A stretch of DNA of 64,000 bases from Terfezia claveryi (lineage: Eukaryota > Ascomycota > Pezizomycetes > Pezizales > Pezizaceae): the NCBI GenBank assembly GCA_015179025.1, contig WHUX01000158.1:1-64000 (forward strand), read 5' to 3'. The first letter of the stretch is position 1. The number at the start of each line of letters is the position of its first letter. The position numbers were made by a program, and so were the translations under genes. Below, in pieces: positions 5,505 to 61,510 of this stretch. The notes under the pieces were generated by a model. The model was not told the DNA's origin, did no database searches, and saw nothing but the letters and a program-made list of their open reading frames with translations.

Positions 5505-6544
5505 CTAGTATATAGAATATTTGGCAGCCAGCGAGTTTCTCATGTATTCAGCTATTTTTCCTTAGTATATTGGATGTCCACCCGCCAGTAAGTTCTATAT
5601 ATATTACCTTGAATTGGCATCTCTGCTAGCTACTGAGTTTCTCATATATTCAGCTGTTTTTGCTTGCTATATAGCATCCTGGCTAAAAGCGAGTTTCTCA
5701 TATATTCAGCTGTTTTTGCATAGTATATAGGGTGTTGGCCCACTAGCAAGTTTCTCATATATTTAGCTGTTTTTGCTTGCTATATAGCATCCTGGCTAAA
5801 AGCGAGTTTCTTATATATTCAGCTGTTTTTACATAGTATATAGGGTGTTGGCCCACTAGCGAGTTTCTTATATATTTAGCTGTTTTTGCTTGCTATATAG
5901 CATCCTGGCTAAAAGCGAGTTTCTTATATATTCAGCTGTTTTTACATAGTATATAGGGTGTTGGCCCACTAGCGAGTTTCTTATATATTTAGCTGTTTTT
6001 GCTTGCTATATAGGGTCTGCGCTCTAAGCCAATTTTCCATATCTTTAGTAGTTTTTGCTTTATACATAGGATGTCCGCCTGCTACCGAGTTGTTCATATA
6101 TTACCCTGAATTGTTATCTCTGCCCGCCAGTGAGTTTCTTATGTATTTAGCTGTTTTTGCCTGGTATATAGGATATCTGGCAGCCAGCGAGTTTCTCATA
6201 TATTCAGCTATTTTTCCTTAGTATATTGGATGTTCGCCTACCAGCGAGTTCTATATATATTACTCTGAATTGGCATTTCCGTCAGCTACTAAGTTTCTCA
6301 TATGTTCCGTAGTTTTTGCTTGCTATATAGCATCCTCGCTTTAAGTGAGTTTCACATATATTCAGCTGTTTTTGCTTACTATATAGAGTCCATGTCCTAA
6401 GCCAGTTTCTCATATATTCAGCAGTTTTTGCTTGGTATACAGGATGTCTGCCTGCCAGTGGGTTATTCATATATTACCCTAAATTGTCATCTCTGCCTGC
6501 CAGCGAGTTTCTTATATATTCAGCTGTTTTTGCTTAGTATATAT
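5505..6544 (+). repeat. minisatellite, 56-58 bp units
   Basis: Tandem units built on GAGTTTCTCATATATTCAGC followed by TGTTTTTGCTTGCTATATAG and a variable 12-16 bp spacer such as CATCCTGGCTAAAAGC. About 18 units. A larger alternation of two unit types is visible between 5640 and 6000. The same family occurs at 7083-7883, 39665-39867 and 48908-52225. Confidence 0.9.
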
Positions 6545-7082: not shown

Positions 7083-7883
7083 GATATTGGCTAGCTAGTG
7101 AGTTTGTTATATATTTAGCTGTTTTTGCTTCATATATAGCATCCTCACCCTCAGCCCAGTTCTCATATATTCAACTATTTTCACTTAGTACATAGGATGT
7201 CAGCCTGCCAGCAAGTTCTTCATATATTACCCTGAATTGTCATCTCCGCTCGCCAGTGAGTTTCTCATGTATTCAGCTGTTTTTGCTTAGTATATTGGAT
7301 GTTGGCCAGCTAGCGAGTTTTTCATATATTCAGCTATTTTTGCTTGGTATATAAGATATTGGCCAGCTAGCATATTCTCATATATTCAGCTGTTTTTGCT
7401 TCATATATAGGATTCTCGCTCTACGCGAGTTTTTCATATATTCAGCTGTTTTTGGTTGCTATATAGCAGCCTAGCCCTGAGCTTGTTTCTCATATATTCA
7501 ACTGTTTTTGGTTGCTATATAGCAGCCTAGCCCGAAGCGAGTTTCTCATATATTCAGCTGTTTTTGCTTCATATATAGGATTCTCGCTCTACGCGAGTTT
7601 TTCATATATTCAGCTGTTTTTGGTTACTATATAGCAGCCTAGCCCTGAGCTTGTTTCTCATATATTCAACTGTTTTTGGTTGCTATATAGCAGCCTAGCC
7701 CGAAGCGAGTTTCTCATATATTCAGCTGTTTTTGCTTGGCATATTAGATATTCGCCTGCCAGTAAGTTCTTCATATATTACCCTGAATTGGTATCACCAC
7801 CAGCTACTGAGTTTCTTATATAGTTAGCTGTTTTTACTTGCTATATAGCATCCTCGCCCTAAGCGGGTTTCTTATATATTCAG
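7083..7883 (+). repeat. minisatellite, 56-58 bp units (continued)
   Basis: Same unit as at 5505-6544. A higher-order block of three units (about 170 bp, starting GATTCTCGCTCTACGCGAG) is repeated almost identically at 7402-7570 and 7571-7738. The array breaks off at 7883; 7884-7971 is unrelated AT-rich sequence without recognisable content. Confidence 0.88.
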
Positions 7884-7971: not shown

Positions 7972-8553
7972 TGTCACAACCTTGTTCTTAGTCTTGATTT
8001 GATACTTGAACAGGCTTGTTCGGGTGTCGTACTGTTTTGACATTCGAATAGGCTTGTTCGGGTATCGTTGATGGGTTATTGTTATTGTTGCCCTCGGCAT
8101 CACCTATGACGCAGGTGATGTGTTATTGACATTGTTGCCCTCAGCATCACCTGCGACGCAGGTAATGGGTTATTGACATTGTTGCCTTTATTATCACCTG
8201 CAATTGCAGCTGATGGGTTATCGTTACCTTGCTTGGCTTCTGAGATAAGGGATCTTGGAAAGCTTATTCCTTCTGTTGCCCTGGCCCGGAATTATGTATA
8301 TATAGCCCCTGCCCCTCGTACTGTCATTGGATCCTTATCCAACATCTTGTATATCCAATACCGGACCTTGCTTCTTCCAACGCTTCTGCACCTCCCTTAT
8401 GTACCCCCTTGTCTCGTAAACAGCTCTATAGCACAGCTGCCTCTCTCTGACACATGTGGCAACTGCCTCCACGTGTTTCGTGCCCCTTGCCCTCTGCCTC
8501 TCTTGCCTTGCCCCAGTCCTAGGCTTTTCCCCTAGTCACATACGTAGCAAAAT
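7972..8553 (+). repeat. gypsy LTR, 3' truncated (about 582 bp)
   Basis: Starts TGTCACAACC and follows the young LTR through the hairpins, three CACCTGCG palindrome units (8090-8215) and the TATATATAG stretch near 8297. It stops at CACATACGTAG, about 110 bp short of the normal LTR end, where the gene-like island begins. No target duplication. The truncation marks a breakpoint or recombination junction. Confidence 0.88.
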
Positions 8554-8560
8554 TTGAGAG

Positions 8561-9787
8561 ACCCACAAGAAACTGCTTGGCCCCCCTTTGTCGTGGGAGC
8601 GTGCTAAGGACTGGAAAAGACAAAAAGTCAACAGGGTACTCAAAGCAGGGATTAAGGAGGTGGAACACGCTATAATAACCTAAAGGGCAATTGGCACTCG
8701 GAGAAACCAGTTAAACGATATTGAACTAGGAAACTTCGAAAGAGTTGTCCAAAGGACGTAGGACCTGATGTTCATCTGCAAAAGGGCATATATTCTCTAC
8801 CAGTGGTATCAACTCTCGGATGACCAGAAGAGATTTTACTTGGAATTAGAGGAGCAACAAGAGCTCCCTAATTTCCAAATTCCAAATGGGGAATTGGAAG
8901 CAATAGGGGTCAAGCCAGTACAGCAGTTCGCAGTTGTCATTAACCTTGTGCCGATAAACCGCCGAGCTTATGCCCGATTCCAAGAGCCAACTCCACTAGT
9001 CTCGACACTCGACCCTGGAGCTACGCGTGACACAGGTACCAACCTAACTAGTGATATAGGTGCCAATAAAACTAGTGACAAAGGCCCTAACGTACCCGAG
9101 GGTCGGATACTGACCATTCAAGAGGAATTAGCTGAGGGGGGTGCCGACGATTGCTTAAGTGATGAGGACATTGGGACGGATATTAAGGAGGTAGGTGCAT
9201 CCTCACGCTTGATCCATCTTGCGCTTGATGTAAAGAACATTACTCACCAGTGGATAGCATTGCAATAACAAACCCAACAAGCAAGATGATGATGAAGATA
9301 CAGGACTATGGGGCAGATGGGAAGCTTCAGAGGGTCCTACTGAAGAAGAAGAAGCTCAACTAACTGAATCTGACTCCAGCAAATGGGGAAAGGGGTTGTT
9401 GGTACCTGGTGGAGATAGGCCCACCAAATTTCTTCCAAGAGGTATGGAAGATGAGGATTATAGTGACTCCACCGATGAGGACTATACCGAGGTCAATAAA
9501 TGAGTATTTCGGCGGATTTTGCGTCGAGGTACTGCAATGACAACCACCCACAACAATCAAGAGGACAAAGGCGAAAAGCAAGTCGCAGGCGATAATAGGG
9601 GGAAAGATGAGCGAGAAGATGTAGATAAGGAAGAGGGTGAGGATGAGGATAAAGCTGACTAGGGAGCAAGAAGCAAAATGGGAAATATTTTGAATTTGTT
9701 TTTACTGTCACGGATGAAGGACTTGTCATGGATAGGAAACTTATTATGGATGCCGTGAATAGTCGTTATCAACTTTCTGAGGTGTAA
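8561..9787 (+). pseudogene. unknown pseudogene with acidic C-terminal half
   Basis: I do not recognise this gene. One frame runs from about 8561 to 9268 with two stops (TAA about 8679, TAG about 8760), both explicable as C-to-T changes of CAA/CAG. The segment 8768-9268 is 166 codons. It contains WYQLSDDQKRFYLELEEQ, which resembles the third helix of an HMG box; this is weak evidence only. The reading then shifts by one base near 9260 and continues to 9662 (single TGA at 9501), becoming strongly acidic (EDEDYSDSTDEDYTEV, EEGEDEDKAD). A last open piece ending ...SRYQLSEV at 9785-9787 is again in the first frame. The truncated LTR directly upstream may have removed its 5' end. Lower mutation load than the surrounding repeats suggests a host-derived or recently duplicated sequence. 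Confidence 0.5.
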
Positions 9788-10330
9788 TTGTACTACTATT
9801 TTTGTGTCTTTGATTGTATATTTTATTGTGTCTTTTGTTGCGTATGTGTTGGATGTCTACGGGCTGATGCAAGTTTTTTTTTTGGATGTTTATAGGGTGG
9901 GGTAATGCAATAGTTTTTATCTTTGTATATTTTTTTGATGTCTACTCCGGACTGATGGTATTTTCTTTGTATGTCTTTTTGATGTCTATAGGCTTTGTTT
10001 TGGGCTTATGCTAGAGGTATTTTGTTTCTGTTTTTATTTTGTCCAATGCTAGTATTTGTTCTGTCTGAAACATTAGAAGGTATGTTTTTTGTTTCCTCCC
10101 TTTGTTACTAGTGAGCTAACTGATGACAGCCAACACAAATTAGTGAGGATAGAGAGAAACAATGAATTATATTTTATTCTAGAGCTCATTGGTCTATTTG
10201 TGGTCCCCTGCGTACCCTTGGGAACATACATTTACAAGCAAACTTACTATCCCAAATCTCAGATTCTTTGAACCTCCGACTTCTGCAACCTTCAGGTGTG
10301 GAATAACACTTACCCCCAAATACAGATATA
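9788..10330. other. gene-free, T/G-rich low-complexity spacer
   Basis: Contains loosely repeated GATGTCTAYRGGNTGATG phrases between 9850 and 9990 and long T runs, then about 250 bp of ordinary sequence leading to the start codon at 10331. No credible coding frame. It may hold the 3' UTR of the upstream pseudogene and the promoter of the histone-like one, but no defined motif supports that. Confidence 0.5.
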
Positions 10331-10401
10331 ATGGCGCGAACAAAACAGAAACCCAGAAATATCAAGACCATAGTGCCTCCAACGACGGTCCCACCCTCCC
10401 A

Positions 10402-10525
10402 GGTGCCCCTGCCCCAAGTGGCTGCACCCCAAGTGGCCACACCACAAGTGGCCACATCCCAAGTGGCAGCACTCCAAGTAGCCACACCCGAAGTGGCCCT
10501 AGCGATAGTCCCCCTCCCCAAGTGG
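10402..10525 (+). repeat. 15-bp tandem repeat encoding PQVAT/PQVAA
   Basis: Seven degenerate copies of a 15-bp unit (CCAAGTGGCCACACC) in exon 1 of the histone-like pseudogene. The first six keep the MARTKQ reading frame. The last copy, near 10518, is one base out of phase with them, which locates the frameshift inside or just before it. Confidence 0.85.
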
Positions 10526-10585
10526 CCTCCACTATAGGCTCACAGGCTAGAGCAGTTCCTAGAAGAAGAAGGGTCAATCGAGGAC

Positions 10586-10647
10586 GTAAGAACTCCTAAG
10601 CTCAATGCCAGTTCAATTTGACCTTGGAATGCTAAGTGTGCTGTCAG
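10586..10647 (+). other. predicted intron 1 of histone-like pseudogene (62 bp)
   Basis: GTAAGA donor, TGCTAAG as a plausible branch site at about 10630, and TGTCAG acceptor. Splicing joins GGA-C to TG-GCC and brings the basic exon 1 end in frame with the H3-like alpha-N segment, giving GLAIFR where H3 has TVALRE. Confidence 0.7.
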
Positions 10648-10872
10648 TGGCCATTTTCAGATAGATACGGAGACAACAGGGCAGCACAATGCTGATAATA
10701 CCGAAGACTGCGTTCCAACGGTTGTGCAGAGAAATTGTATAAGACTAGAACAATGAATACAACGCTATGCAGAGGATTCTCAGGGGACGGACCGATGTTG
10801 AAAGAATTGGAATTCTTGCGACAAATACTCTCCAAGAGTCTACGGAGGCATATATGCATGAATTTTTTACAG

Positions 10873-10936
10873 GTAATAAGACATAGATGGTGAGTAGAAA
10901 ATTGTCAGAATAATACTAACATGGCTGATACAATAG
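10873..10936 (+). other. predicted intron 2 of histone-like pseudogene (64 bp)
   Basis: GTAATA donor, a canonical TACTAAC branch site at about 10914-10920, and CAATAG acceptor. Splicing joins the end of the alpha-2 helix segment (HEFFT) to AINLLATQSG, matching the H3 loop 2 region. Confidence 0.78.
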
Positions 10937-11089
10937 CGATCAACCTTTTGGCAACTCAGAGTGGGGAGTGAAACCTACCACGCCAAACAATTCTTCGTAG
11001 GGATGTGAGGTTGTGGCATCAAGTGAAAGAGAATTAGCTATTCGGGGGTAATGTGACCCATATACACGCACCGTTTCTTCACTCACCAC

Positions 11090-11452
11090 CAGCAACACCA
11101 GAACCAGCAGACGCACAAAAACAAGCACCAGCACTAGTACCAGAACTAGCACTGGTACTAGCACAAGTACAAGCACCAGAACCAGTACCAGAACCAGCAC
11201 CAGAACTAGCACCAGCACTAGCACAAGCACCAGCACCAGCACTAGGACCAGCACTAGCACTAGCACAAGCACCAGCACCAGTACCAGGAATAGCACCAGC
11301 ACCAGAACCAGCACTAGCACCAGCACCAGCACGAGCACGAGCACGAGCATGAGCACCTGCACGAGCATGAGTACGAGCTCGAGCACCAGCACTAGCACTA
11401 GCACCAGAACTAGCACCAACACTAGAACCAGCGCCAGCACCAGAACCAGGAC
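11090..11452 (+). repeat. hexamer-type minisatellite (AGCACC/AGTACC)
   Basis: About 60 degenerate 6-bp units. In the plus frame shared with the histone exon 3 they encode Ala-Pro, Val-Pro and Leu-Ala runs; the other frames give Ser-Thr or stops. Two TGA codons (11350-11352, 11368-11370) sit where neighbouring units have CGA. The frame exits the repeat into SSLSSRRSIRTRT, an eight-serine run and a charged end, closing at TAG 11596-11598. The reverse strand is also open here because of the repeat composition. Confidence 0.8.
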
Positions 11453-11598
11453 CAGCAGCTCCTATTGGGGTGGATACTTCTTCGTTATCATCTAGAAGAA
11501 GTATTAGAACAAGAACCTTGTCATCGTCTTCTTCTTCATCTTCTGACAAGGAAGGAGAACAATCAGAGGAACGGGGACGACAAGGAGAAGAACAATAG

Positions 11599-12182
11599 TA
11601 GGTAATTGAAGGATCACCTCGAACACAAAATTCCATATTACAGCTCTAGGAAGATCATCGAAGTTGTTTTCTTAATTAAGCTTTGTATATTTTTTGTGCC
11701 CCGAGTTGATTGGGGGTAATGAATGATCTGATAAGGGCAGGAACAAGGTTACAGAAACTAATTCGTTTATATGTAGGCTTGAGAATAGCTCATGTTATTC
11801 AGATTGATATGGGACTGAATATGCAGACACACAAGGAAGAGAAAGGAGGTAGAAAGGGAAGAGTGAAAAGGGTAGAGTTATCAGTGGTATTATTTTTTGG
11901 CTTGTATTATATTTTAGGGAAAAGAGTGTAGGCTTATTGGTAGCATTTTTTTTTAGTTGTGTTTTCTGTTTATTTTTAATTATGTTATCAATTGGGGAAG
12001 AAGGAAGTTGGAATGAAGGAAGTTGGAATAGGATTCATTTGTATTTTTAATGTAGTTGTTTTATGAGTTGTAATTGGGTCATGAGATTTTCAGAAGTAAA
12101 GGGAGTTCGTGAATGAGTTTATGATTAGGAATGGCAGATGGCATGCAGGAACTATTACAATTTTCGAGTTAGTAGGGTTGTG
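11599..12182. other. no recognisable gene
   Basis: Moderately AT-rich sequence without credible coding frames or repeats. A short open stretch at 11710-11931 (73 codons) shows no known motif and is not supported as a gene. Could include the 3' flank of the histone-like pseudogene. Confidence 0.5.
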
Positions 12183-12600
12183 TTACAAAATAGGAGAATT
12201 CCATGACAAGTTGAATTCCATAACAACTTGAGAGAATTCCGTGACAAGAAGCATTTCATGACAACTAAGGAATCTGTGACAACTTGAGAGAATTCCGTGA
12301 CAAGAAGCAATTCGTGATACCAAAGGAATCTGTGACAACTTGAGTTGATTCCGTGACAACTTGAGTTGATTCTGTGACAACTTGAGTTGATTCTGTGACA
12401 ACTTGAGTTGATTCCGTGACAACTTGAGTTGATTCCGTGACAACTTGAGTTGATTCCATGACAACTTTAGACAATTCCATGACAACTACAGGACTGTGAG
12501 AAATGGCGACAATTCCATAACAGTACAAGCAATCCATAACAGTGGAGGTAATCCGTAACGTGCAAGAAATCCGTGACGTGCAAGAAATCCGTGACAGTGA
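12183..12600 (+). repeat. 21-bp minisatellite
   Basis: Core unit GTGACAACTTGAGTTGATTCC; six nearly perfect copies at 12330-12460, flanked on both sides by diverged units (TTCCGTGACAAGAAGCAATTC, AATCCGTGACGTGCAAGA). Both strands are open across it only because 21 is a multiple of three. Confidence 0.88.
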
Positions 12601-12960
12601 CGGTGTGCTAAGTTAAATTTGACCCGAATTATATATAGTAAGTATAAGAACTCGTCTAGAGTCAGGCACCAGCACAAGTACTAGATCAATAACACTAAGG
12701 CATGGCGAGTACTCGTTGGCTACTCGGCGCTGGCCTGAGTAATCCAGAGCAGCGAATAACCGACTCGCCGGTTAGAAGAGTAGAGAAAAACCGACTCGCC
12801 GGTGCGAGTCTTAGCTAGGCAGTTTAAGAAAAAATCGTCTCACGGCGCACACTATACATTCTTCAATTGCTTATGTGAGGTCTTGCAAACCTCCATTGAA
12901 AATTAGGGCAAGCTGCTATAGTGGGAGATTTGATCAGCCCAATATATTAATATTTGTATC
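12601..12960. other. spacer with a short direct repeat
   Basis: No gene seen. AACCGACTCGCCGGT occurs twice (about 12756 and 12788) in a comparatively GC-rich, unmutated stretch that includes several CGAGT words. It may be the outer flank or terminus of an element; nothing further supports that. Confidence 0.4.
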
Positions 12961-19229: not shown

Positions 19230-20690
19230 GTCTACGGATTTGCTAGCGAGTCTATATATCTTGCTATATATATGCATATTGATAGGGGATATCTCGGAAG
19301 TATCCTAAAAGCAATTAGCTAGGTAGTCCTATAGTGGATTTGCTAGTGAGTCTACATACCTAGCTATGTCTGTGTATATTGATTGGAAATATCTCAAGAG
19401 TGCACTTGCAAAGTTCTAAGAGTAATTAGCAATACTTCCACATTGAGTCCACTAGCTTTCTACCGAGTTTACATACCTAGCTATGTCTATGAATATTGAT
19501 AGGGGATATGTCAGCAGAGTTCTAAGAGAAATTAGTAATGCTTCTATATAGAGTCCACTAGCTTGCTAGAAAGTTCATATACCTGGCTATATCTATGAAT
19601 ATTGATAGGGAATATATCAGTAGAGTTCTAAGAGAAATTAGTAATACCTCCATATAGAGTCTACTAGCTTTCTAGCAAGTTCACATACCTAGCTATATCT
19701 ATGAATATTGATAGAGAATATCTTAGTAAAGTCTTAAGAGAAATTAGGATTGGCTTCACATAGAGTCTGCTAGTTTCTAGCGAGTTCACATACCTAGCTA
19801 TACCTATGTCTATGCATATAGATTGGAGATATCTTACAACTAGACTTTAGATATCCTAAGAGTAATTAGAAATACCTTTATATAGAGTCTACTAGTTTCT
19901 GGCGAGTTCAGTACCTAGCTATACCTGTATCTGTGCATATAGAGAGTGGATATCTCACAACTACAGTTTTAGTATCTCTAAGAGCAATTAGCAATTCCTT
20001 CACATAGAGTCTACTGGTTTCTGGTGAGTTTACATACTTAACTATGCCTGTCTCTACAGAAATAGATTGGGGATATCTTACAACTATACTTTGGGCATCC
20101 TAAGAGCAATTAGTAATACTTTTATATAGAGTCCACTAGTTTCTGGCAAGTTCAGTAGCTAGCTATGCCTGTATCTGCATATATAGATTGGGAATATCTT
20201 GCAACTACAGTTTAGGCATCCCTAAGAGCAATTAGTAGTGCCTTCATATAGAGTCTGCTAGTTTCTAGCATGTTCACATACCTAGCTATACCTATATCTA
20301 TATATATAGATTCGAAATATCTCGCAACTACACTTTGTGCATCCTAAAAGCAATTAATAATGCCTTCATATAAAGTCTGCTAGTTTCTAGCCAGTTCAGT
20401 ACCTAGCTATGCCTATGTCTGCGTACATAGATTGGGAATATCTCACAACTGTACTTTAGACATCCCTAAGAGCAATTAGCAGTACCTTCCCATAGAGTCC
20501 ACTAGTTTTTGGCGAGTTCACATAGTACCTAGCTATGCCTGTATCTATGCATATAGATTAAGGATATCTTGCAACTGCACTTTAGGCATCCTAAGAGTAA
20601 TTAACTAAGCCTTCACATAGAGTCCACACATTGTCTGGTGAGTTCATGCACCTAGCTATGTCTGTGTATATAGATAGGGAATATCTCGAG
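19230..20690 (+). repeat. 122-bp satellite, left arm
   Basis: About 12 units. The phrase AGAGCAATTAG recurs at 19981, 20103, 20225, 20347 and 20469, a period of exactly 122 bp. Units contain TAGAGTCYRCTAGTTTCTRG, ACCTAGCTATGCCTGT and GGATATCTCGCAACT. Confidence 0.88.
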
Positions 20691-20979: not shown

Positions 20980-23400
20980 TGTTCATATGGACTTAGGCAT
21001 ACGAGAAACTAATGCTTTTGGACACTTATATATATGTATATGAGAAACTCATGCTATTCAGACTTGTATATATATATGCGAGAAAGTCATACTTTTGATG
21101 CTTATTAGTATATATATAAGAAATCCATATATTCGCAAGCATACATATATATATATATGAGAAACTCAGGCATTTGGAGACATATATATATATATGTGAG
21201 AAATCTATAAATTCATGAGCATATATATATATATACATGAGAAACTCATTCTTTTGGACACTAATATATATATATGTGAGAAACTCATGCTTTTGAGACT
21301 TATATATATATATGCGAGAAACTCATACTTTTGAGAATTATTAGTATATATATGAGAAATCTATGCATTGGTAAGCATATATATATATATATATGAGAAA
21401 CTCATGCTTTTAGAGATATATATATATATATGAGCAATGTATGTATTTGCAGGCTTATATATATATATATGCGAGAAACTCATGCTTGTGGAGACATATA
21501 GAGAAATATGTCTTGATAGACATATATATATATATGTATCAGAAACTTATACTTTTGGAGACTTATATATATATATGTGAGAATCTCGTACTTTTGGAGA
21601 GATATATATATATATGTGAGAAATCTATAGAGTCATGAGCTTATGTATATATATATAAGAAATCTATGTATTCGCAGGCTTAAATACATATATATACGAG
21701 AAACTTTTGCTTTTCGAGACATATAGAGATATTTATATATTTGGAGGCATATATATATATATGTATAAGAAACTCATGCTTTTGGAGCTATAGAGAAATG
21801 TAGGCAAGACTAATATATATGCATAGGTAAGAAAGTTATGCATTGGCAGCCTCTAAATCTATATAGAATCAATCTATAAGCCTTATCCGCACAAGATTCT
21901 CGCAGAGATATATATATATATATGAGCAATGTATGTATTTGCAGGCTTATATATATATATATGCGAGAAACTCATGCTTGTAGAGACATATAGAGAAATA
22001 TGTCTTGATAGACATATATATATATATGTATCAGAAACTTATACTTTTGGAGACTTATATATATATATGTGAGAATCTCGTACTTTTGGAGAGATATATA
22101 TATATATGTGAGAAATCTATAGAGTCATGAGCTTATGTATATATATATAAGAAATCTATGTATTCGCAGGCTTAAATACATATATATACGAGAAACTTTT
22201 GCTTTTCGAGACATATAGAGATATTTATATATTTGGAGGCATATATATATATATGTATAAGAAACTCATGCTTTTGGAGCTATAGAGAAATGTAGGCAAG
22301 ACTAATATATATGCATAGGTAAGAAAGTTATGCATTGGCAGCCTCTAAATCTATATAGAATCAATCTATAAGCCTTATCCGCACAAGATTCTCGCAGAGA
22401 TATATATATATATATGAGCAATGTATGTATTTGCAGGCTTATATATATATATATGCGAGAAACTCATGCTTGTAGAGACATATAGAGAAATATGTCTTGA
22501 TAGACATATATATATATATGTATCAGAAACTTATACTTTTGGAGACTTATATATATATATGTGAGAATCTCGTACTTTTGGAGAGATATATATATATATG
22601 TGAGAAATCTATGGAGTCATGAGCTTATATATATATATAGAAGAAATCTATGTATTCGCAGGCTTAAATACATATATATACGAGAAACTTTTGCTTTTCG
22701 AGACATATAGAGATATTTATATATTTGCAGGCATATATATATATATGTGTAAGAAACTCATGCTTTTGGAGCTATAGAGAAATGTAGGCAATACTAATAT
22801 ATATGCATAGGTAAGAAAGTTATGTATTGGCAGCCTCTAAATCTATATAGAATCAATCTATAAGCCTCATCCGCACAAGATTCTCGCATATATACTAATA
22901 AGCCTCAAATGCATGAGATTCTTATATATATATATATATATCTCTAAAAGCATAAGTTTCTTGCATATATACAAATAAGCCTCAAAAGTATGAGTTTCTC
23001 ATATATATATATATCAATCTCAAAAGTATGAGTTTCTTGCATATATATATATATGTCTCCAAAAGCATGAGTTTCTAATACATATATATATATATACCTG
23101 CAAATATATACATTTCTTGCATAGATATATACATATCTCCAAAGGTACGAGTTTCTTGTACATATATATATATATGCTTACGAATACATAGATTTCTCGT
23201 ATATATATATATATATATCTCTAAAAGCCCAAGTTTCTTGTACATATATATATATATGCTTGTGAATGTATAGATTTCTTACATATATACTAATAAGCTT
23301 CAAAAGTATAAGTTTCTCGTATATATATATATAAGTCTCAAAGGCATGAGTTTCTCGCATATATATATATAAGTGTCAAAAAGCATGAGTTTCTCATATA
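20980..23400 (+). repeat. AT-rich core array of the palindrome
   Basis: Short units (about 35-45 bp) of (TA)n followed by GAGAAACTCATGCTTTTGGAG. Left of about 22890 they read in this orientation; right of it they appear as reverse complements (GCATGAGTTTCTC), so the centre of symmetry lies inside this array. Confidence 0.88.
21413..22888 (+). repeat. 492-bp unit triplicated in tandem
   Basis: Three almost identical copies begin at about 21413, 21905 and 22397; GAGCAATGTATG recurs at 21432, 21924 and 22416, exactly 492 bp apart. The copies differ at only a few positions. Each unit is itself made of the core array and ends CACAAGATTCTCGC. This part is present on one side only, so it shifts the centre of the palindrome. 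Confidence 0.9.
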
Positions 23401-23699: not shown

Positions 23700-24860
23700 A
23701 GTGCACTTTCGAGATATCCCCTATCTATATGTGCAGACATAGCCAGGTATATGAACTCACTAGACAACTTATAGACTCTATGTGAAAGCCTAGCTAATTG
23801 CTTTTAGGACGCCCAAAGTACAGTTGTGAGATATCCCCAATCTATGTGTACAGATACAGGTATAGCTAGGTACATAAACTCACTAGAAACTAGCAGACTC
23901 TATATGAAGGTACTGCTTATTGCTCTTAGGGATATCCAAACTACAGTTACAATATATCTCCAATCTATATGTATAGATACAGGCATTGCTAGGTATTGAA
24001 CTCGCCAGAAACTAGCAGACTCTATATGAAGGTATTACTAATTGCTCTTAGAATACCCAAAGTACAGTTACGAGATATCCCCAATCTATATGCACAGATA
24101 CAAGTATAGCTAAGTACTAAACTTGCCAGAAACTAGTAGACTCTATATAAAGGTATTGCTAATTGCTCTTAGTATATCCAAAGTACAGTTGCGAGATATT
24201 CCTAATGTATGTATGCAGACACAGATATAGCTAGATATATGAACTTGCCAGAAACTAGCAGACTCTATATAAAGGTATTGCTAATTACTCTTAGTATGCC
24301 CAATGTACAGTTGCAAGATATTCCTAATATATGTATGCAGACACAGATATAGCTAGGTATATGAACTTGCCAGAAACTAGCAGACTCTATGTGAAGGCAT
24401 TGCTAATTGCTCTTAGAGATGCCCAAACTGTAGTTGCGATATATCCTTAATCTATGTATATAGATACAAGCATAGCTAGGTACAGAACTCACTAGAAACT
24501 AGTGCACTCTATATGAAGACATTACTAATTACTTTTAGGGATACCCAAACTGCAGTTGTGAGATATTTCTAATCTATATGTATTGATACAGGCATAGCTA
24601 GGTACTGAACTTGCTAGAAACCAGTGGACTCTATATAAAAGCCTGGCTAATTGCTATTAGGACACCCAAAGTATAGTTGTAAGATATCTCCAATCTATAT
24701 GCATCGACACAGGCATGGCTAGGTACGTGAACTCACCAAAAACAAGGGACTCTATGTGAAAGTAATACTAATTTCTTTTAGGACTCCGATAAAATATTCT
24801 CTATTTATATTCATAGACATAGCTAGGTATATAAACTTGCTAGAAAGTTAGTAGACTCTA
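23700..24860 (-). repeat. 122-bp satellite, right arm (inverted), first part
   Basis: Reverse complement of the left-arm satellite. TGCTCTTAG recurs at 23921, 24043 and 24165 (122-bp period). It is interrupted at 24861 by pogo copy 2, with the TA duplication at 24859-24860, and resumes at 27107. Confidence 0.88.
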
Positions 24861-48907: not shown

Positions 48908-51900
48908 GTCTTTGCTTCCTATATAATATCCTTGTCTTTAGTAGGTTTCTGATATATTCAGGAGTTTTTACTTGGTCTATAGGATATCTATCCTAAGTGA
49001 GTTTCTTATATATTCAGCTGTTTTTGCTTGGTATATAAGATCCTTGCCTTAAGTAAGTTTTTCATATATTTAGCTGTTTTTACTTGCTATATAGTATTCT
49101 GGCCCTGAGTGAGTTTCTCATATATTCAACTGTTTTTATTTAGGATATAGAATGTCAGCCACCTAGTGAGTTTCTCATATCTAGCTATTTTTGCTTACTA
49201 TATAGGGTCTGTACCCTAAGCTAGTTTCTCATATATTCAGTTGTTTTTACTTCGTACATAGAATGTCTACCTGCTAGTGAGTTCTTCATATATTACCCTC
49301 AATTGTTATCTCTATTCATTAGTGATTTTTTCATATATTCAATAGTTTTTATTTACTCTATAATACCCTGGCCCTAAGTGAGTTTCTTATATCTTGAACT
49401 ATTTTTGCTTGCTATATAGTATCTTCACCTCAAGTAGGTTTCTCATATATTTAACTATTTTTGCTTGCTATATAGAGTCTATGCCCTAAGCCCATTTCTA
49501 ATATATTTAGCTGTTTTCACTTGATATATAGGATGTTCATCTTAAGAAAGTTTTATATATATTCAACTATTTTTGGTTGGCATATTAGATGTTGGCTTAC
49601 TAGCAAGTTGTTTATATATTACTCTGAATTGGCATCTCTACCAGCTACCGAGTTTCTTATAGAGGCAGCTATTTTTACTTGCTATATAGGGTCTGTACCC
49701 TAAGCTAGTTTTTTATATATTCAGCTATTTTCCTTAGTATATAGGATAGCAGCCAGCTAAAGAGTTTCTTATATATTTAGCTGCTTTTGCTAGGTATATA
49801 GGATATCTAGTAGCTAGCAAGTTTCTTATATATTGAGCTATTTTTGCTTGCTATATAGCATCCTCACCTTAAGCGAGTTTCTCATATATTTAGCTCTTTT
49901 TACTTACTATATAGCATCTTCACCCTAAGTGAGTTTCTTATGTCTTCAACTGTTTTTACTTATGATATAGCGTCTATGCCCTAAGCTAGTTTCTCATATA
50001 TTCAGATGTTTTCACTTGGTATATAGGATGTCTATCTACTAGTGAGTTCTTCATATATTACTTTGAATTATCATCTCTGCTTGCCAGCAAGGTTCTTATA
50101 TATTCAGCTATTTATACTTAGTATATAGGATATCAGCTAGCTAGTGAGTTTCTTATATATTCAGTGGTTTTTAATTACTATATAGTATCCTTACCCTAAG
50201 TAAATTTCTTATATATTTAGCTGTTTTGCTTACTATATAGTATCCTCACCCTAAAGGAGTTTCTTATATATTTAGCTATTTTTATTTACTATATAGAGTC
50301 TATACCCTAAGCCAGTTTCCCATATCTTTAGTACTTTTTACTTTGTATATAAGATGTCTGCCTACCAGTGAGTTATTCATATATTACCTTGAATTGTCAT
50401 CTCTACTAGCTACTAAGTTTCTTATGTATTCAGTTGTTTTTGCTTGGTATATAAAATATTGGCTAGCTACTGAGTTGCTCTTATATTCAGTAGTTTTTAC
50501 TTGCTACATATGGTCTACACCCTAAGCCCGTTTCTCATATATTGAGCTATTTTTGCTTAGTATATAGGATGTTCACCTGCCATTGAGTTCTTTATATATT
50601 TAGCTATTTTTGCTTGGTATATAAGATGTCCACCTGCCAGCAAATTCTTCATATATTACTCTAAATTGTCATCTCTACCTACCACTAAGTTTCTCATATA
50701 TTCAGCTGTTTTTGCTAGGTATATGAGATGTCAGTCCACTAGCATAGTCTCATATATTTAGCTATTTTTGCTTGCTATATAATATCCACGCTTTGAGTGA
50801 GGTTTTAATATATTCAGCTGTTTTTGCTTAGTATATAGAATGTCCACCCTCTAGTGAGTTCTTTATGTATTACTCTGAATTAACAACTCTACCAGTAACT
50901 ACATTTCCTATATATTTAGGTATTTTTACTTAGTATATAGGATATCAGCCAGCTACTATATTTTTTATATATTCAGCTGTTTTTGCTTAGTACATAAGTT
51001 GTCTACAGGCTAGCATGTTCTCATATATTTATCTATTTTTACTTTGTATATAGGATCTTGGCCTTAAGTGAGTTTCTTATATATTCAGCTATTTTTCCTT
51101 GGTATATAGGATAGCACCTAGCTAGCAAGTTTCTTATATATTCAGCTGCTTTTACTTAGTATATAGGATATCTAGCAGCTAGTGAGTTTCTCAAATATTA
51201 AGCTGCTTTTACTTACTATATAGCATCCTTACCCTAAGCAGGTTTCTCATATATTCAGCTATTTTTGCTTAGTATATAGAATGTCCACCCTCTAGCGAGT
51301 TCTTTATATATTACCCTGAATTAACAACTCCACCAGTAACTGCATTTCCTATATATTTAGGTATTTTTACTTAGTATATAGGATATCGGCCAGCTACTAA
51401 GTTTGTTATATATTCAACTGTTTTTACTTGGTACATAAGTTGTCTGCCAGCTAGTATATTCTCATATATTCATCTATTTTTGCTTGGTATATAGGATCTT
51501 CGCCCTTAATGAGTTTCTCATATATTCAGCTATTTTTTCTTGGTATATAGGATAGTACCTAGCTAGCGAGTTTCTTATATATTCAGTTGCTTTTACCTAG
51601 TATATAGGATATTTAGCAGCTAGTGAGTTTCTCATATATTGAGCTGTTTTTGCTTACTATATAGCATCCTTACTCTAAGTAGGTTTCTCATATATTCAGC
51701 TATTTTTGCTTAGTATATAGGGTGTCTGTCTACCAGCAAGTTTTTTATATATTCAACCATTTTTGATTACTATATAGAGTTTATGCCCTAAGCTAGTTTC
51801 TCATATATTCAGGTGTTTTTCCTTAGTATATAAGATAGCAGCTAGCTAGCGAGTTTTTCATATATTCACCTATTTTTGCTTGGTATATAGGATATCTGGC

Positions 51901-52225
51901 AGCCAGCAAGTTTCTTATATATTTAACTATTTTTCCTTAGTATATTGAATATTCACATGCCAGCAAGTTCTGTATATATTACTCTGAATTGACATCTCTG
52001 CCAGCTACTAAGTTTCTTATATGTTCAGCTGTTTTTGCTTGCTATGTAGCATCCTTGCCCTAAGTAAGTTTCGAATATATTCAGCTGTTTTTACTTACTA
52101 CATAGAGTCTATACCCTAGCCTATTTCTTATATATTCAGTTATTTTTACTTAGTACATAAGATGTTTGTATGCTAGCAAGTTCTTCATATATTACCCAGA
52201 ATTGTCATCTCTGCCTACTAGCAAG
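48908..52225 (+). repeat. minisatellite, 56-58 bp units (main block, about 58 units)
   Basis: Continuous array of the same unit as at 5505. Some higher-order repetition is visible: the stretch from 50820 to 51240 recurs at about 51260-51690. It ends exactly where the minus-strand gypsy LTR ends. Small open frames inside it follow the repeat and are not genes. Confidence 0.92.
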
Positions 52226-56507: not shown

Positions 56508-57701
56508 ATGTCAGGAACAGCTCTCCCACCACCCGCTGTCAGGTGTCAAACCTAGAGGAGCTCCCCCATACCCTCAGGCTTGAACGAGTTAAATGCCTAC
56601 CATCGAGAAATCATCTACATCTTCGAGGCCATGGATGCCATCGGGGCCGAACTCGGCAACAGCCTGGCCATGGCTGAACAAAAATTGAGATCCGCCGACG
56701 AGGAGATCACGGTCCTCCAGACCAATCTCGACCATCTGAACCTTGCCCTGGCCAACGAACGGACTACGGTCCAAAACCTCAGCCGCGCCCTAGAGAACCT
56801 TGTAATACCAGCAGCAGCCAGTAGCAACAAGACCGAAAGCATTCCAATACCCCCCAAGTTCAATGGGGACCGGGTTCGCCTACGAGCCTGGAAAAATGCT
56901 GTCAATCTCAAGCTGAACGGGGATTCTGCCAGATTCCCGTCAGAACAACATCGACTGGCATACGTTTTCGCCTTGCTGGAGGGGAAAGCTTGTGACCAGA
57001 TCCAGCCGTATGTCCTCGAAACCGGGATCAAGCTTGACGATATCTCGGCCCTTTTTACAATCCTGGATAGGGCGTTCGGGGACCCCGATGCCGTTGGCAC
57101 TGCCAGTAGGGCCCTCCGAGCCCTCAGGCAGAAAAACACTGATCTGTCCACTTATATGGCAGAATTCTCGAGACTGGCAGCGGAGGTCCGATGGAACAAC
57201 CAGTCAAAGCTCGAGCAGTTCCAAGAGGGACTGAATGACGAGCTTCAACAAGCCATGGTCACCCTCCCAGAGACCAAGAGTCTCGATGAATTAATCGACC
57301 AGGCATCCAGGGTGGAACAATGGATGGCTAGGTGGAGATACCGCCCTACCTTCCGCCCTGCCACCCGCTCACCTCAGCAACCACCACAACAGCCCCAGCA
57401 ACAGCAACCAATCCCCAAGCCTGCCCAAGTCCCGGCCTCGGCTAACAAACCTGCGCACACATCAATGGTTGCAGGAGGGGCTACCCCTATGGATCTCTCG
57501 GCTGGGAGACCCCGCCTTGCCCAGGAGGAAAGGGACCGCCGCTGCACTAACGGTCTGTGCATTGCGTGCGGAAAGGGGACCACTTCATTGCGGCATGTCC
57601 CCTCCGCAAGAACCGCTCCCTGGCCGCCCATGCCATATCCGAATTACGGATCGAAGAGGTTGAAGAGTCGAGAAAAGGAGAGTCCCTTGCCTAGTTATTG
57701 A
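56508..57701 (+). pseudogene. gag: Gag of young chromovirus
   Basis: The most likely start is ATG 56508 (MSGTALPPPAVRCQT). It is followed at codon 16 by TAG (56553-56555), after which the frame is open to 57701; the next ATG is 56631. Residues from about 40 onward form a coiled-coil-like stretch (LRSADEEITVLQTNLDHLN). Then comes the Retrotrans_gag domain (RVRLRAWKNAVNLKLNGD, YMAEFSRLAAEVRWN), a Gln/Pro-rich linker and MDLSAGRPRL. The CCHC knuckle is broken: CIACGKG is followed by a one-base loss in AAAGGGG (57572-57578). Reading one base back restores DHFIAAC and a stop at 57692-57694. Gag would form the cytoplasmic particle and bind element RNA. Confidence 0.88.
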
Positions 57702-60700
57702 CACTAGCAAGGGACCTGCTCCAGGTCATTTATCTTTGTCTGCGTTTTCTGTTCCTACATCTATGTCTGTTGATGAATCTCGCCTGTTTGGCGAGTATTT
57801 TGTAGTACCAATAACTGTTAAATTCAATGGTAAAACAGTGGTAAAGTCAGCTCTCATAGATTATGGTGCTTCAGGAATAGCCTTCATTGATCCGACCTTT
57901 GTCAGTAAAAATTCGATACCAACAGCCAAGCTAAAAACCCCCCGCCTTCTTGATGTCATTGATGGCTGCCCTATCTCTTCCGGGGCTATTACCGACCTCG
58001 CATGCCTACCTAGTGCCATTGGAGACCATTCCGAAAGCCTCCCCATGTTTGTAACCAAGCTCAAATACCCCATTGTCCTGGGGATCCTCTGGCTTCGAAT
58101 GCATGATGTCTCGGTTAACTTTGGCTCTTACACCTTGAACTTCAACAGCGGGTATTGCGAGAAACACTGCGGTGCCCCACAGACTGCCGTTAAAGGATTA
58201 TGTGCGCTACCACCCCTGGTAGAGGATCCTAGCTAGGTGATGGCAGAAGCCCCCTCACTAAAACCCCTCGATATCAACTTCATTGGGGCAGGGGCCTTTG
58301 CTTACCTTATCAGAAGGCACAAGCTGAAAGCCCACACTCTATCAATCTGCGAAGTTCACCTGGAAATCAATAAGCTGCAGTCCAAGGAAGAATGGAAGTC
58401 CATGGTCCCGGATGAATATCACAAGTTCATTGATCTATTCTCGGAAAAAGCCGCGGAGAAGCTAGCGCCCCACCGACTATATGACCACACAATTCCGCTG
58501 GTAGAGGGTAAGACCCCCCCCTATGGGCCCCTTTACGGAATGTCCCGGGTGGAGCTGGAGGCCCTGAAGAAATACCTGGAGGAAAACCTCAACAAGAGCT
58601 TCATTTGCCATAGCTCTTCTCCAGCGGGTGCCCCTATACTGTTTGTGAAAAAATCGGACGGTTCTCTGCGGTTGTGTGTGGATTACCGGGGGCTGAACGA
58701 GATAACAGTCAAGAACAGGTATCCCCTGCTTCTAATTCAGGAGACATTAGCCAGGCTTTCCAAGGCCAAATGGTTCACCAAACTGGATTTGAGGGGGGCA
58801 TACAACTTGGTACGGATTGCCGAGGGGGAGGAGTGGAAAACGGCCTTTCGAACTCGCTATGGCCATTTCAAGTACAATGTCATGCTCTTCGGCTTAACCC
58901 ATGCCTCGGCCTCTTTCCAACACTTTATTAATGACACCCTGCGAGACTTCTTGGATGTGTTCTGCATGGCTTACCTCGACGATATCTTGATTTATTCGGA
59001 TACCCTAGCAGAACACAAGATTCATGTCCGGCAGGTGTTGGAAAAGCTGGAGCAAGCCGGATTGTACCTTAAGCCTGAAAAATGCGAATTCCACGTCCAA
59101 GAGGTGAAGTACCTGGGCTTGATCATAACTACGGAAGGTATTAGGATGGACCCCACCAAAGTTGCTGCAATCCAAGAGTGGGAAACCCCAGCCAATTTGA
59201 AGGATGTGCAAGTCTTCCTAGGATTTGCCAACTTCTACCACCGATTTATCCTGGGATACTCAAGAATCGCGGCACCCCTGACGGCCTTGACAAAAACGAA
59301 GGTAGAAGCTGGCTCACACCTGACAAAAAGGGCCTTCCACTGGAATCCAGAAGCCCAATCCGCCTTCCAGAACCTCAAGGAAGCCTTCTGCTCAGCCCCA
59401 ATCCTGGCTCATTTTGACCCTGATAGCGAGTGCATCATGGAAACGGACGCCTCCGACTATGTCTCCGCCGGAATCCTGTCCCAGTATGTCGATAGAGTCC
59501 TCCACCCCATGGCCTATTTCTCAAAGAAGCATTCCCCAGCTGAGTGCAACTACGAGATCTACGACAAGGAGCTGATGGCCATCGTGCGGGCATTCGAGGA
59601 ATGGAGGCCACACCTGGAGTCAGCCAAGGGGATTATCGAAGTACTTTCCGACCATAAAAATCTTGAGTACTTTACCACCACTAAGCTGTTAAACCGCCGA
59701 CAGGCTAGGTGGTCGGAATTCCTCTCTCGGTTTAACTTCAAGATCAGATACCGCCCCGGGAAGGCTGGTGGCAAGCCGGATGCATTGACCAGGAGATCAG
59801 GAGACCTCCCTAAAGGAGGGGATGAAAGGCTGAAATACTAGAATCAGGTGGTACTGAAGCCGGAAAATCTCGATTTGGCAGCCAATGGTCTGGCTGATCC
59901 TGATACTGTTGCTGACGCCGAAGCTGGTCTCCAGCAACAGGTGCGACAAGCATATGAGGAGGACCCCCTGGCTAAGGACATCATTGCCGCATTGGAATCT
60001 GGACAACGTCGTCATACCAAGATTTCCCTAGCCGAATGCACCACTCAGGACGGCCTCCTATACCACCTGGACCGTCTTTATGTACCGGACAGTGAACTGC
60101 GGTTACGGCTTATTAAAGAACACCATGACACCCTGGCTGCTGGGCACCCTGTAGTGGCTAAGATGTTAGAGCTCTTGAGTAGGCAATACACCTGGATCGA
60201 TCAGCGAAAAGACGTGGAAAGGTATGTGCGGAACTGCCATACCTGTAAACGATCAAAGCCTATACGCCATGCCCCCTACGGAACCTTGAAGCCCCTGGAG
60301 ATCCAGGATCGACCCTGGCAACATCTGACTATGGACTTCGTAACTGGGCTGCCGGAGGACTCGTGATTCAATGCCATCCTGATGGTGGTGGATCGGCTGA
60401 CGAAAATGAGACATGTGATACCTTGCCGGGATACCTGCTCCGCCCCGGAGCTAGCCAATCTCTACCTCAACAACGTGTTCCGGTATCACGGCCTCCCCGA
60501 ATCTATTGTATCTGACCGAGGGCCTCAGTTCACCTCGGAATTCTGGAAAGCATTCTGCGAGCTCTTGGGGATCAGGATAAGCCTCTCGACAGCCTACCAC
60601 CCCCAGACTGATGGCCAGTCAGAAAGGATGAATACTATCATGGAACAATATCTACGGGCCTATGTCAACCACCAGCAGAATAATTGGGTGTCCTTGTTGG

Positions 60701-61383
60701 CAACCTGCGAGTTCGCCGCAAACGACCAATTCTTAGAGTCCTTGAAAACCTCCCCCTTTCTGGCCAATTACGGTTGGCACCCCAGATTCATGGATGCCCT
60801 GGCGCACCTGCAGAGAGTCCACCCCCCGGCCAAGCAGTTTGCAGCTGGAATTGCAGAGCTCCACTCCACCTTAAAAGCCGAGCTGGGATATGCGCAAGCC
60901 AGGCAAACCAAGTACGCCAACGGCTCACGGTTGCCAGCCCCCAGGTATCAGCCAGGGGATAAGGTGTGGCTCTCCAGCCGGCACTTCCGTACAGAACGAC
61001 CTTCTCGTAAGCTGGATCATAAGTTCCTGGGGCCATATGAGATATTGGGGAATGTGGGCACTCACGCCTACCGGTTGAAGTTCCCTAAAGACATCAAACG
61101 CCACCCGGTCGTTCACGTCTCGGAGATCGAACCAGCCGCCAACGATCCCCTCCCCGGGCAAAAGCACCCCCCACCTCCTCCCGTTGTGATTGCAGGTGAA
61201 GAGGAGTGGGAGGTTGGGGAGGTACTGGACTCTAAGAAGTGCTATGGGCGAGTTCAGTACAAGGTCAAATGGTTAGGGGACGAGAAGGCTACCTGGCAAC
61301 CTGCAGAGGACTTGGAGAATGCACAGGATCAGGTCACCCTGTTTCACCAGCGATACTCGAGGAAGCCTCGCCCAGTTGAATGA
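57664..61383 (+). pseudogene. pol: Pol of young chromovirus (PR-RT-RH-IN-chromodomain)
   Basis: One frame overlaps gag from 57664 and runs to TGA 61381-61383 with three internal stops: TAG 58234, TAG 59839, TGA 60364. Protease: ALIDYGASGIAFID (57852-57893), with Tyr where DSG/DTG is usual. [19 protein letters not shown] from about 58489, the YLDDILIYS active site at 58972-58998. RNase [15 protein letters not shown] (59439-59480) to about 59790. Integrase: an HHCC finger (HHDTLAAGHP...CHTCKRSK, 60121-60258), catalytic DFVTGL (60334) and SDRGPQFTSEFW (60511-60546), and the GPYEI motif (61031). A chromodomain (WEVGEVLDSK...YKVKWLGDE, 61207-61340) would steer insertion to H3K9-methylated chromatin. 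Copy A has CAA where 59839 is TAG, but shares the 58234 amber. Confidence 0.92.
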
Positions 61384-61510
61384 TGTCAAACCTTTTGCGT
61401 CCTTGTTGTTTTTCGGAGTTGGGGTTCTTGTTCTTACCTTTGTTGTTGTTGTTTCCTGTATTGATTTTGCGGGTTATCGTGCCCAGGCCTCCTAGTCGCT
61501 GGAGCTCCAG

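Follow-up and report, generated by a model that had tools for sequence, protein, structure and literature searches.

A decayed histone H3-like gene of Terfezia claveryi, very probably belonging to a lineage of large hAT transposons

Published H3-like genes in fungal hAT elements

The closest described systems are two fungal groups of hAT elements that carry histone H3-like (H3L) genes. In Pyrenophora tritici-repentis, the available passages of Manning et al. (2013, PMC3538342) describe a hAT transposase, an open reading frame of unassigned function and an H3L gene lying between terminal inverted repeats (TIRs). The H3L genes fitted neither H3 nor CenH3, occurred in many copies and were represented by ESTs. 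The elements measured 5.6 kb (10 copies) or 2.3 kb (16 copies) and held 26 almost identical H3L genes, whose drift was put forward as possible. In Pseudocercospora fijiensis and five relatives, the excerpts at hand of Dhillon et al. (2019, PMC6710886) report hAT elements of 9.5–9.9 kb with 8-bp target site duplications (TSDs) and hundreds of H3-like copies, which were intronless, all inactivated and decayed by C-to-T changes. Their origin was read as a captured housekeeping H3 transcript, and a second H3-like copy carried a 16-residue insertion. A literature search on transposon-borne histones returned these two H3L-hAT papers; no truffle or Pezizales report was among the matches listed, which does not prove absence, and the passages available from the truffle literature (PMC7550596) hold nothing on the subject. 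TET/JBP dioxygenase-carrying transposons, including hAT7, are likewise fungal DNA transposons with a gene thought to aid escape from silencing, although their enzyme acts on methylcytosine rather than on a histone and the TSD of hAT7 is 7 bp, according to the sections available of Kojima (2025, PMC12730594).

The gene considered here lies in a stretch of 64,000 nucleotides of Terfezia claveryi (contig WHUX01000158.1, positions 1 to 64,000), hereafter the window. It is very likely a decayed copy of an H3-like gene that travels within large hAT DNA transposons of one lineage, and that H3L belongs to a hAT transposon at all is close to certain. The present elements are of the same kind as the published ones, namely hATs with an H3-like gene between their ends. 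Set beside the Pyrenophora element by its partial description, they share the hAT and the H3-like gene between TIRs but differ in being at least 12.5 kb long and in having several divergent subfamilies, more reading frames and measurable selection. The Pseudocercospora element, likewise compared through the description available, has the same 8-bp TSD, H3-like copies and C-to-T decay, whereas the present H3L has introns and its elements are 12.5 kb and longer. What is new here is a further fungal lineage, shared introns, selection, an old linkage to the transposase, and relatives with the loop insert.

The hAT element and its remnant in the window

Rather than a solitary centromeric paralogue, the histone-like feature of the window is one of many dispersed repeat copies. 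A 70-residue exon-2 query gave at least 102 matches in the species' own assembly (72.56 Mb, 794 contigs), one of them the exon 2 of the window itself (C66:10665-10871); 35 of the 102 were free of stops by a hand count of rows covering at least 61 of the 70 residues. With a 1.4-kb DNA query, at least 67 matches were found, the window copy included, and nearly the whole query was present at 8 further places at 84–89% identity. From the exon-2 copies inspected, we labelled subfamilies A (that of the window), B, C and E for this analysis. A deeper group, D, comprises the weaker matches C27, C143 and C572 (E about 0.0105, 0.0155 and 0.155), of which C27 scores 32.3 bits against PF00125. The contig of the window bears a second H3L element remnant at G000:C66:122811-126484, on the minus strand.

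Element boundaries were recovered at multiple loci. The left end TAGTGTGCGCC occurs at C45, C23 and C32, and with one or two changes at C131, C226, C350 and C355; the right end GGCGCACACTA is found in the window and at C45, C23, C62 and C773, with variant right ends at C131, C165, C219, C226, C253, C350 and C355. Among six two-ended elements, the target duplication is perfect over 8 bp at C131 (GACTTCTC/GACTTCTC) and matches at 7 of 8 positions at C45, C226 and C350, and the flanks mismatch at C23 and C355. Complete elements span 12,474 bp (C226) and 12,766 bp (C131); longer ones reach 17,861 bp (C45, which contains a satellite array) and 26,934 bp (C350). In the common layout, a hAT transposase on the minus strand occupies the left, followed on the plus strand by gene 1, gene 2 and, rightmost, H3L. 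The predicted transposase of the C45 copy is assigned to the hAT superfamily by its dimerisation domain (PF05699, E 2e-20); its DUF659 match lies below that family's cut-off. Four transposase pieces are 73–92% identical in protein to subfamily B, and two further left-part frames 66% and 39%. Between A and C, gene 2 is 66% identical, a value obtained by joining two C pieces across a guessed splice. No Pfam match above cut-off was obtained for parts of genes 1 and 2, and none from NCBIfam for H3L and gene 2 beyond one meaningless sub-threshold row. In subfamily C, gene 2 ends in a long Glu/Asp tail (L044:4250-4473) reminiscent of the acidic tails of histone chaperones. Upstream of the subfamily C H3L at C62, and apparently within the element, are open frames that resemble a Ty1/copia retrotransposon by reading of their translations (L054:3136-8060, G000:C62).

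The window retains the right end alone (Table 1). Over long blocks, the remnant is 82–90% identical to the copies at C45, C219 and C131, and gene 2 is recognised by tblastn in three blocks (8537-8857, 8924-9247 and 9360-9596) at 89–90% to the C45 copy. No transposase was found in the window by tblastn with six left-part pieces, four of them from the transposase (E 1e-3).

Table 1. Features of the element remnant and its H3L gene in the window
Feature	Position	Strand	Remarks
Right-hand remnant of a subfamily A hAT element	8549..12854	+	5' part lost
Gene 2, broken 3' part	8549..9596	+	Function unassigned; conserved between subfamilies
H3L exon 1	10331..10585	+	MARTKQKPRNIKTIV... tail; frame-shifted; one stop in the start frame; donor GTAAGA
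Intron 1	10586..10647	+	GT...AG; position identical in 12 copies inspected, 3 with a mutated donor
H3L exon 2	10648..10872	+	alpha-N, alpha-1, extended loop 1, alpha-2; 3 in-frame stops
Intron 2	10873..10936	+	GT donor in each of the 12 copies inspected
H3L exon 3	10937..~11598	+	Loop 2 and alpha-3 to ~11035, then low-complexity tail
Subterminal direct repeats	12223..12657	+	Full elements have them close to the left end too
Right terminal inverted repeat GGCGCACACTA	12844..12854	+	Partner of TAGTGTGCGCC at left ends elsewhere

The pairing of H3L with the transposase extends well beyond single elements. Of 101 transposases at least 55% identical to the query, 42 have an H3L sequence no more than 20 kb away and arranged as in the element (far side, opposite strand), versus none of 49 more distant hATs (Fisher p = 2.4e-9), the 55% and 20-kb limits having been chosen after the list was viewed. 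The set comprised 150 hAT dimerisation-domain matches, a lower bound, and the 102 exon-2 matches together with four weak ones (C572, C245 at E 0.178, C143 and C27). H3L was nearby in another arrangement for 12 of the 101 close and 5 of the 49 distant transposases. At 55–59% identity, three of four transposases were paired with a divergent H3-like sequence 6.7–7.2 kb away. Because H3L accompanies transposases down to 56% identity, its association with them is old. A stand-alone host H3 variant is ruled out by the element ends, TSDs and this linkage. Outside the genome, a search with the first 719 of 846 joined transposase residues gave 82 proteins at 25–40% identity; the named matches belong to Penicillium, Aspergillus, Talaromyces, Venustampulla and Rhizophagus, and the published H3L elements are absent from them.

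The surroundings of the remnant are rich in repeats. Three arrays, at 5635-6445, 7251-7738 and 48911-52159, are built of a related satellite of roughly 56 bp whose unit contains CATATATTCAGCTGTTTTT, and possibly mark a centromere or subtelomere. At 21412-22888 a 492-bp unit occurs three times, at 99% match, between two 122-bp arrays (19735-20665 and 23734-24783), which match, in opposite orientations, the satellite inside the C45 element. A dispersed repeat at 57648-61449 and 88-1517 is related to sequences that adjoin the H3L copies at C219 and C253. Rfam gave no matches over the window at gathering score.

Gene structure, histone fold and selection

The initial annotation proposed a pseudogene of three exons, and its exon and splice coordinates hold, with GT at 10586, AG before 10648, GT at 10873 and AG before 10937. 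Among 12 H3L copies surveyed, donor 1 is GT in 9, acceptor 1 is AG in all 12 and donor 2 is GT in all 12. The further proposal that two introns restore the reading phase stands for exons 2 and 3, in which the frame LAIFR*IRRQQGSTMLIIPKTAFQRLCREIV*D*NNEYNAMQ...TNTLQESTEAYMHEFFT continues as AINLLATQSGE*NLPRQTILRRDVRLWHQVKEN* (asterisks, stops); it fails across exon 1, which contains a stop and is 255 nt long (0 mod 3), compared with 1 mod 3 in 10 of 12 H3L copies checked. The two stops of exon 3 both fall in its fold part, and an (AGCACC)n run occupies 11124-11457 within its low-complexity tail. The window copy is dead, with five stops in exons 2 and 3 and, in exon 1, a stop and a shifted length, as its description as a pseudogene had anticipated. 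Stop-free H3L genes were obtained elsewhere by inferred splicing, with predicted products of 261 aa at C62 (C), 168 aa at C773 (C) and 333 aa at C355 (B); the C773 gene ends earlier through a one-base difference, and that of C355 ends in a low-complexity stretch.

The helix-by-helix resemblance of exons 2 and 3 to H3, first noticed from the sequence alone, was borne out by profile searches. Joined with X at the stops, the two exons match PF00125 at 34.5 bits against a cut-off of 26.4 (E 2.8e-8, residues 5-101 on profile positions 40-117), and representatives of C, B and A score 44.7, 45.7 and 34.7 bits, all above the cut-off. A profile built from four H3L copies aligns along positions 1-152 with H3 chains of solved structure (best E 4.9e-16), H3.3C being the best match among them. 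Aligned with host H3, the fold is complete, with alpha-N, alpha-1 (FRRLCREI), alpha-2 (ALQEATEAYLHEF) and alpha-3; both loops are extended, loop 1 by 14 residues and loop 2 by five. These extensions and the two introns agree with the earlier reading of a variant H3 rather than a processed housekeeping copy. AlphaFold was applied to exon 2 alone, a fragment without alpha-3, and predicted helices at 2-11, 14-40 and 47-74 with a mean pLDDT of 72. Foldseek with this fragment model gave 59 matches, none at E<=0.001, and no histone in the best 50; the predicted model and the fold search thus neither support nor refute a histone fold.

Members of the H3 family carry a tail with conserved ARTKQ, plus ARKS at K9 and K27. 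The ARTKQ start is kept in A and in the C copy L045, but reads AGTKQ in B and ATTKT in E, and ARKS is absent from all four H3L tails checked (C, B, A and the database protein P0002). The tail instead carries a private motif, RNIKTIV in A, RNVKTIV in B, RNIKSVV in C and RNIKTMG in E. H3L is an H3 family member by its fold and not by the conserved ARTKQ/ARKS tail.

Database relatives share the extended loop 1. A profile search with A, B, C and E, of which the best 120 of 535 proteins were considered, placed six proteins that read as H3L-like at the top (P0001-P0006); the remaining rows read or named among these 120 were ordinary H3 in appearance (8 sequences read). P0004, from Terfezia claveryi, is close to subfamily E by eye in its tail and last exon. 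The best 120 of 364 proteins in a second profile search added P0203-P0208, P0221 and fragments (12 further sequences read). Each of the 12 database relatives aligned has residues where the loop 1 insert falls, a stretch at which host H3 is gapped. The tail motif reads KSIKTIV in P0002 and P0203, KSIQTIV in P0206 and MKMIV in P0204, and is absent from the predicted N-terminus of P0001. No Pyrenophora-named protein was found among the best 120 of 535 or the best 120 of 364. The 16-residue insertion of the Pseudocercospora copy may be a lead toward the loop 1 insert seen here.

Exon 2 was likely under purifying selection between subfamilies, because dN/dS between them is about 0.1–0.3. For the least-damaged copies, dN/dS was 0.10–0.11 (A/B), 0.10–0.11 (A/E) and 0.20–0.22 (B/E); all A/B/E pairs with finite dS, window pairs included, gave 0.09–0.27. 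Comparisons with C were largely saturated, with finite values of 0.13–0.24. Values ranged from 0.16 to 1.16 within B and from 0.05 to 0.43 within C. These estimates (NG86, 75 codons) cover 16 chosen copies in non-independent pairs, pairs with F_L035 being skipped for its other length. Differences in exon 2 were in excess at third positions (p = 9.0e-6 for A/B, 9.6e-6 for A/E and 1.1e-3 for B/E, in non-independent pairs). The excess persisted for transversions alone (p = 0.013, 0.0075 and 0.0082), which C-to-T decay cannot cause. In exon 3, 13 of 19, 13 of 22 and 15 of 25 differences were at third positions, and three transposase pieces compared between A and B gave dN/dS of 0.13, 0.18 and 0.22.

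Single copies follow a different course. Against two close A copies, the window gave dN/dS of 2.5 and 3.5, and against a third, 0.49. From C45 to the window, C-to-T changes affected 38 of 194 CpG, 33 of 340 CpA, 5 of 309 CpT and 11 of 318 CpC sites; the reverse direction was lower (CpG 5/128, CpA 12/347), and against C219 the rate was raised in both directions. Individual H3L copies thus decay by C-to-T changes at CpG and CpA, a RIP-like pattern with an added CpG component.

Origin and possible role of H3L

The window gene had been described as CENP-A-like, a centromere-type paralogue unusual in lying among satellites, and a host CENP-A paralogue pseudogenised in such a setting would account for its satellite-rich surroundings and for a loop 1 that exceeds that of H3, as the loop of host CENP-A does. 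Like H3L, cenH3s combine the H3 fold with a longer loop 1. However, host CENP-A has an open frame of its own at C773:158050-158358, whose product shares 73% identity with S. pombe Cnp1, and canonical host H3 is at C153, with apparent introns, read from the frames, after ARTKQTAR, before GVKKPHRY and after IHAK. In a 21-row tree that included both, H3L was not nested in host H3 but formed one clade (100/99), and four cenH3s and host CENP-A formed another (99/95). A tryptophan after loop 1 is present in all five cenH3 rows of the tree and missing from the H3L rows. The AU test did not reject a joint H3L and cenH3 clade (p = 0.30), which leaves room for a very old common origin of the two. At least 102 dispersed matches, the pairing of H3L with 42 hAT transposase copies and the hAT element boundaries also speak against a CENP-A paralogue. 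As the best reading it is set aside by the host CENP-A frame and the separate clades, and we consider it highly improbable. The hAT transposon explains the setting that had suggested a centromeric gene.

Passive carriage would mean that a hAT picked up a host H3 gene or its transcript and multiplied it, after which the copies drifted or were inactivated; this reading has a precedent in the excerpts of PMC6710886 and, as possible drift, in those of PMC3538342. Many copies are broken, the window copy decays freely relative to A copies (2.5, 3.5 and 0.49), and some pairs within B reach a dN/dS of 1.16. Against it stand the low A/B/E values (0.09–0.27) with their third-position excess, the introns co-located in divergent copies and unlike the apparent intron places of host H3, and a tree that places H3L outside host H3. 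The selection tests disfavour passive capture, which we regard as improbable. Alternatively, H3L may serve target choice or a transposition complex, tethering it to nucleosomes, rather than counter silencing; this account rivals the proposed function of H3L alone and not its membership of the element. The conserved fold, the private tail motif and the position of H3L near the right end of the element would fit such a role, and the acidic gene 2 tail of subfamily C could act as a histone chaperone. We consider this account rather unlikely, if worth keeping in view.

The likeliest role is that of a silencing-resistant histone, because ARKS, the context of K9 and K27, is missing from the tail; a role based on K4 is weakened because B and E alter the ARTKQ start. 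Judged from the tails, an anti-silencing function is a realistic possibility that falls short of probable. The H3L protein would pair with host H4 and make or alter nucleosomes on or near the element. Such nucleosomes may resist H3K9/K27-type silencing, since those tail contexts are missing, and the resulting open chromatin could favour transposase expression or transposition.

Some transposons are known to carry enzymes that act against silencing; one with a core histone of its own, maintained by selection, would act on host chromatin in a different way. We tentatively propose that these transposons own a dedicated histone: H3L would be an ancient H3 branch that evolves independently and belongs to the hAT lineage rather than to hosts, with its own tail code and silencing-resistant nucleosomes on transposon DNA. 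If so, its tail would be a natural example of H3 evolution shaped by the needs of a mobile element, and the Dothideomycetes cases read as captured housekeeping H3 would belong to the same old branch. The finding is also relevant to the published H3-hAT elements, which could stem from separate captures or belong to one old lineage. A histone-like pseudogene found among fungal repeats should not be called centromeric until hAT ends have been looked for.
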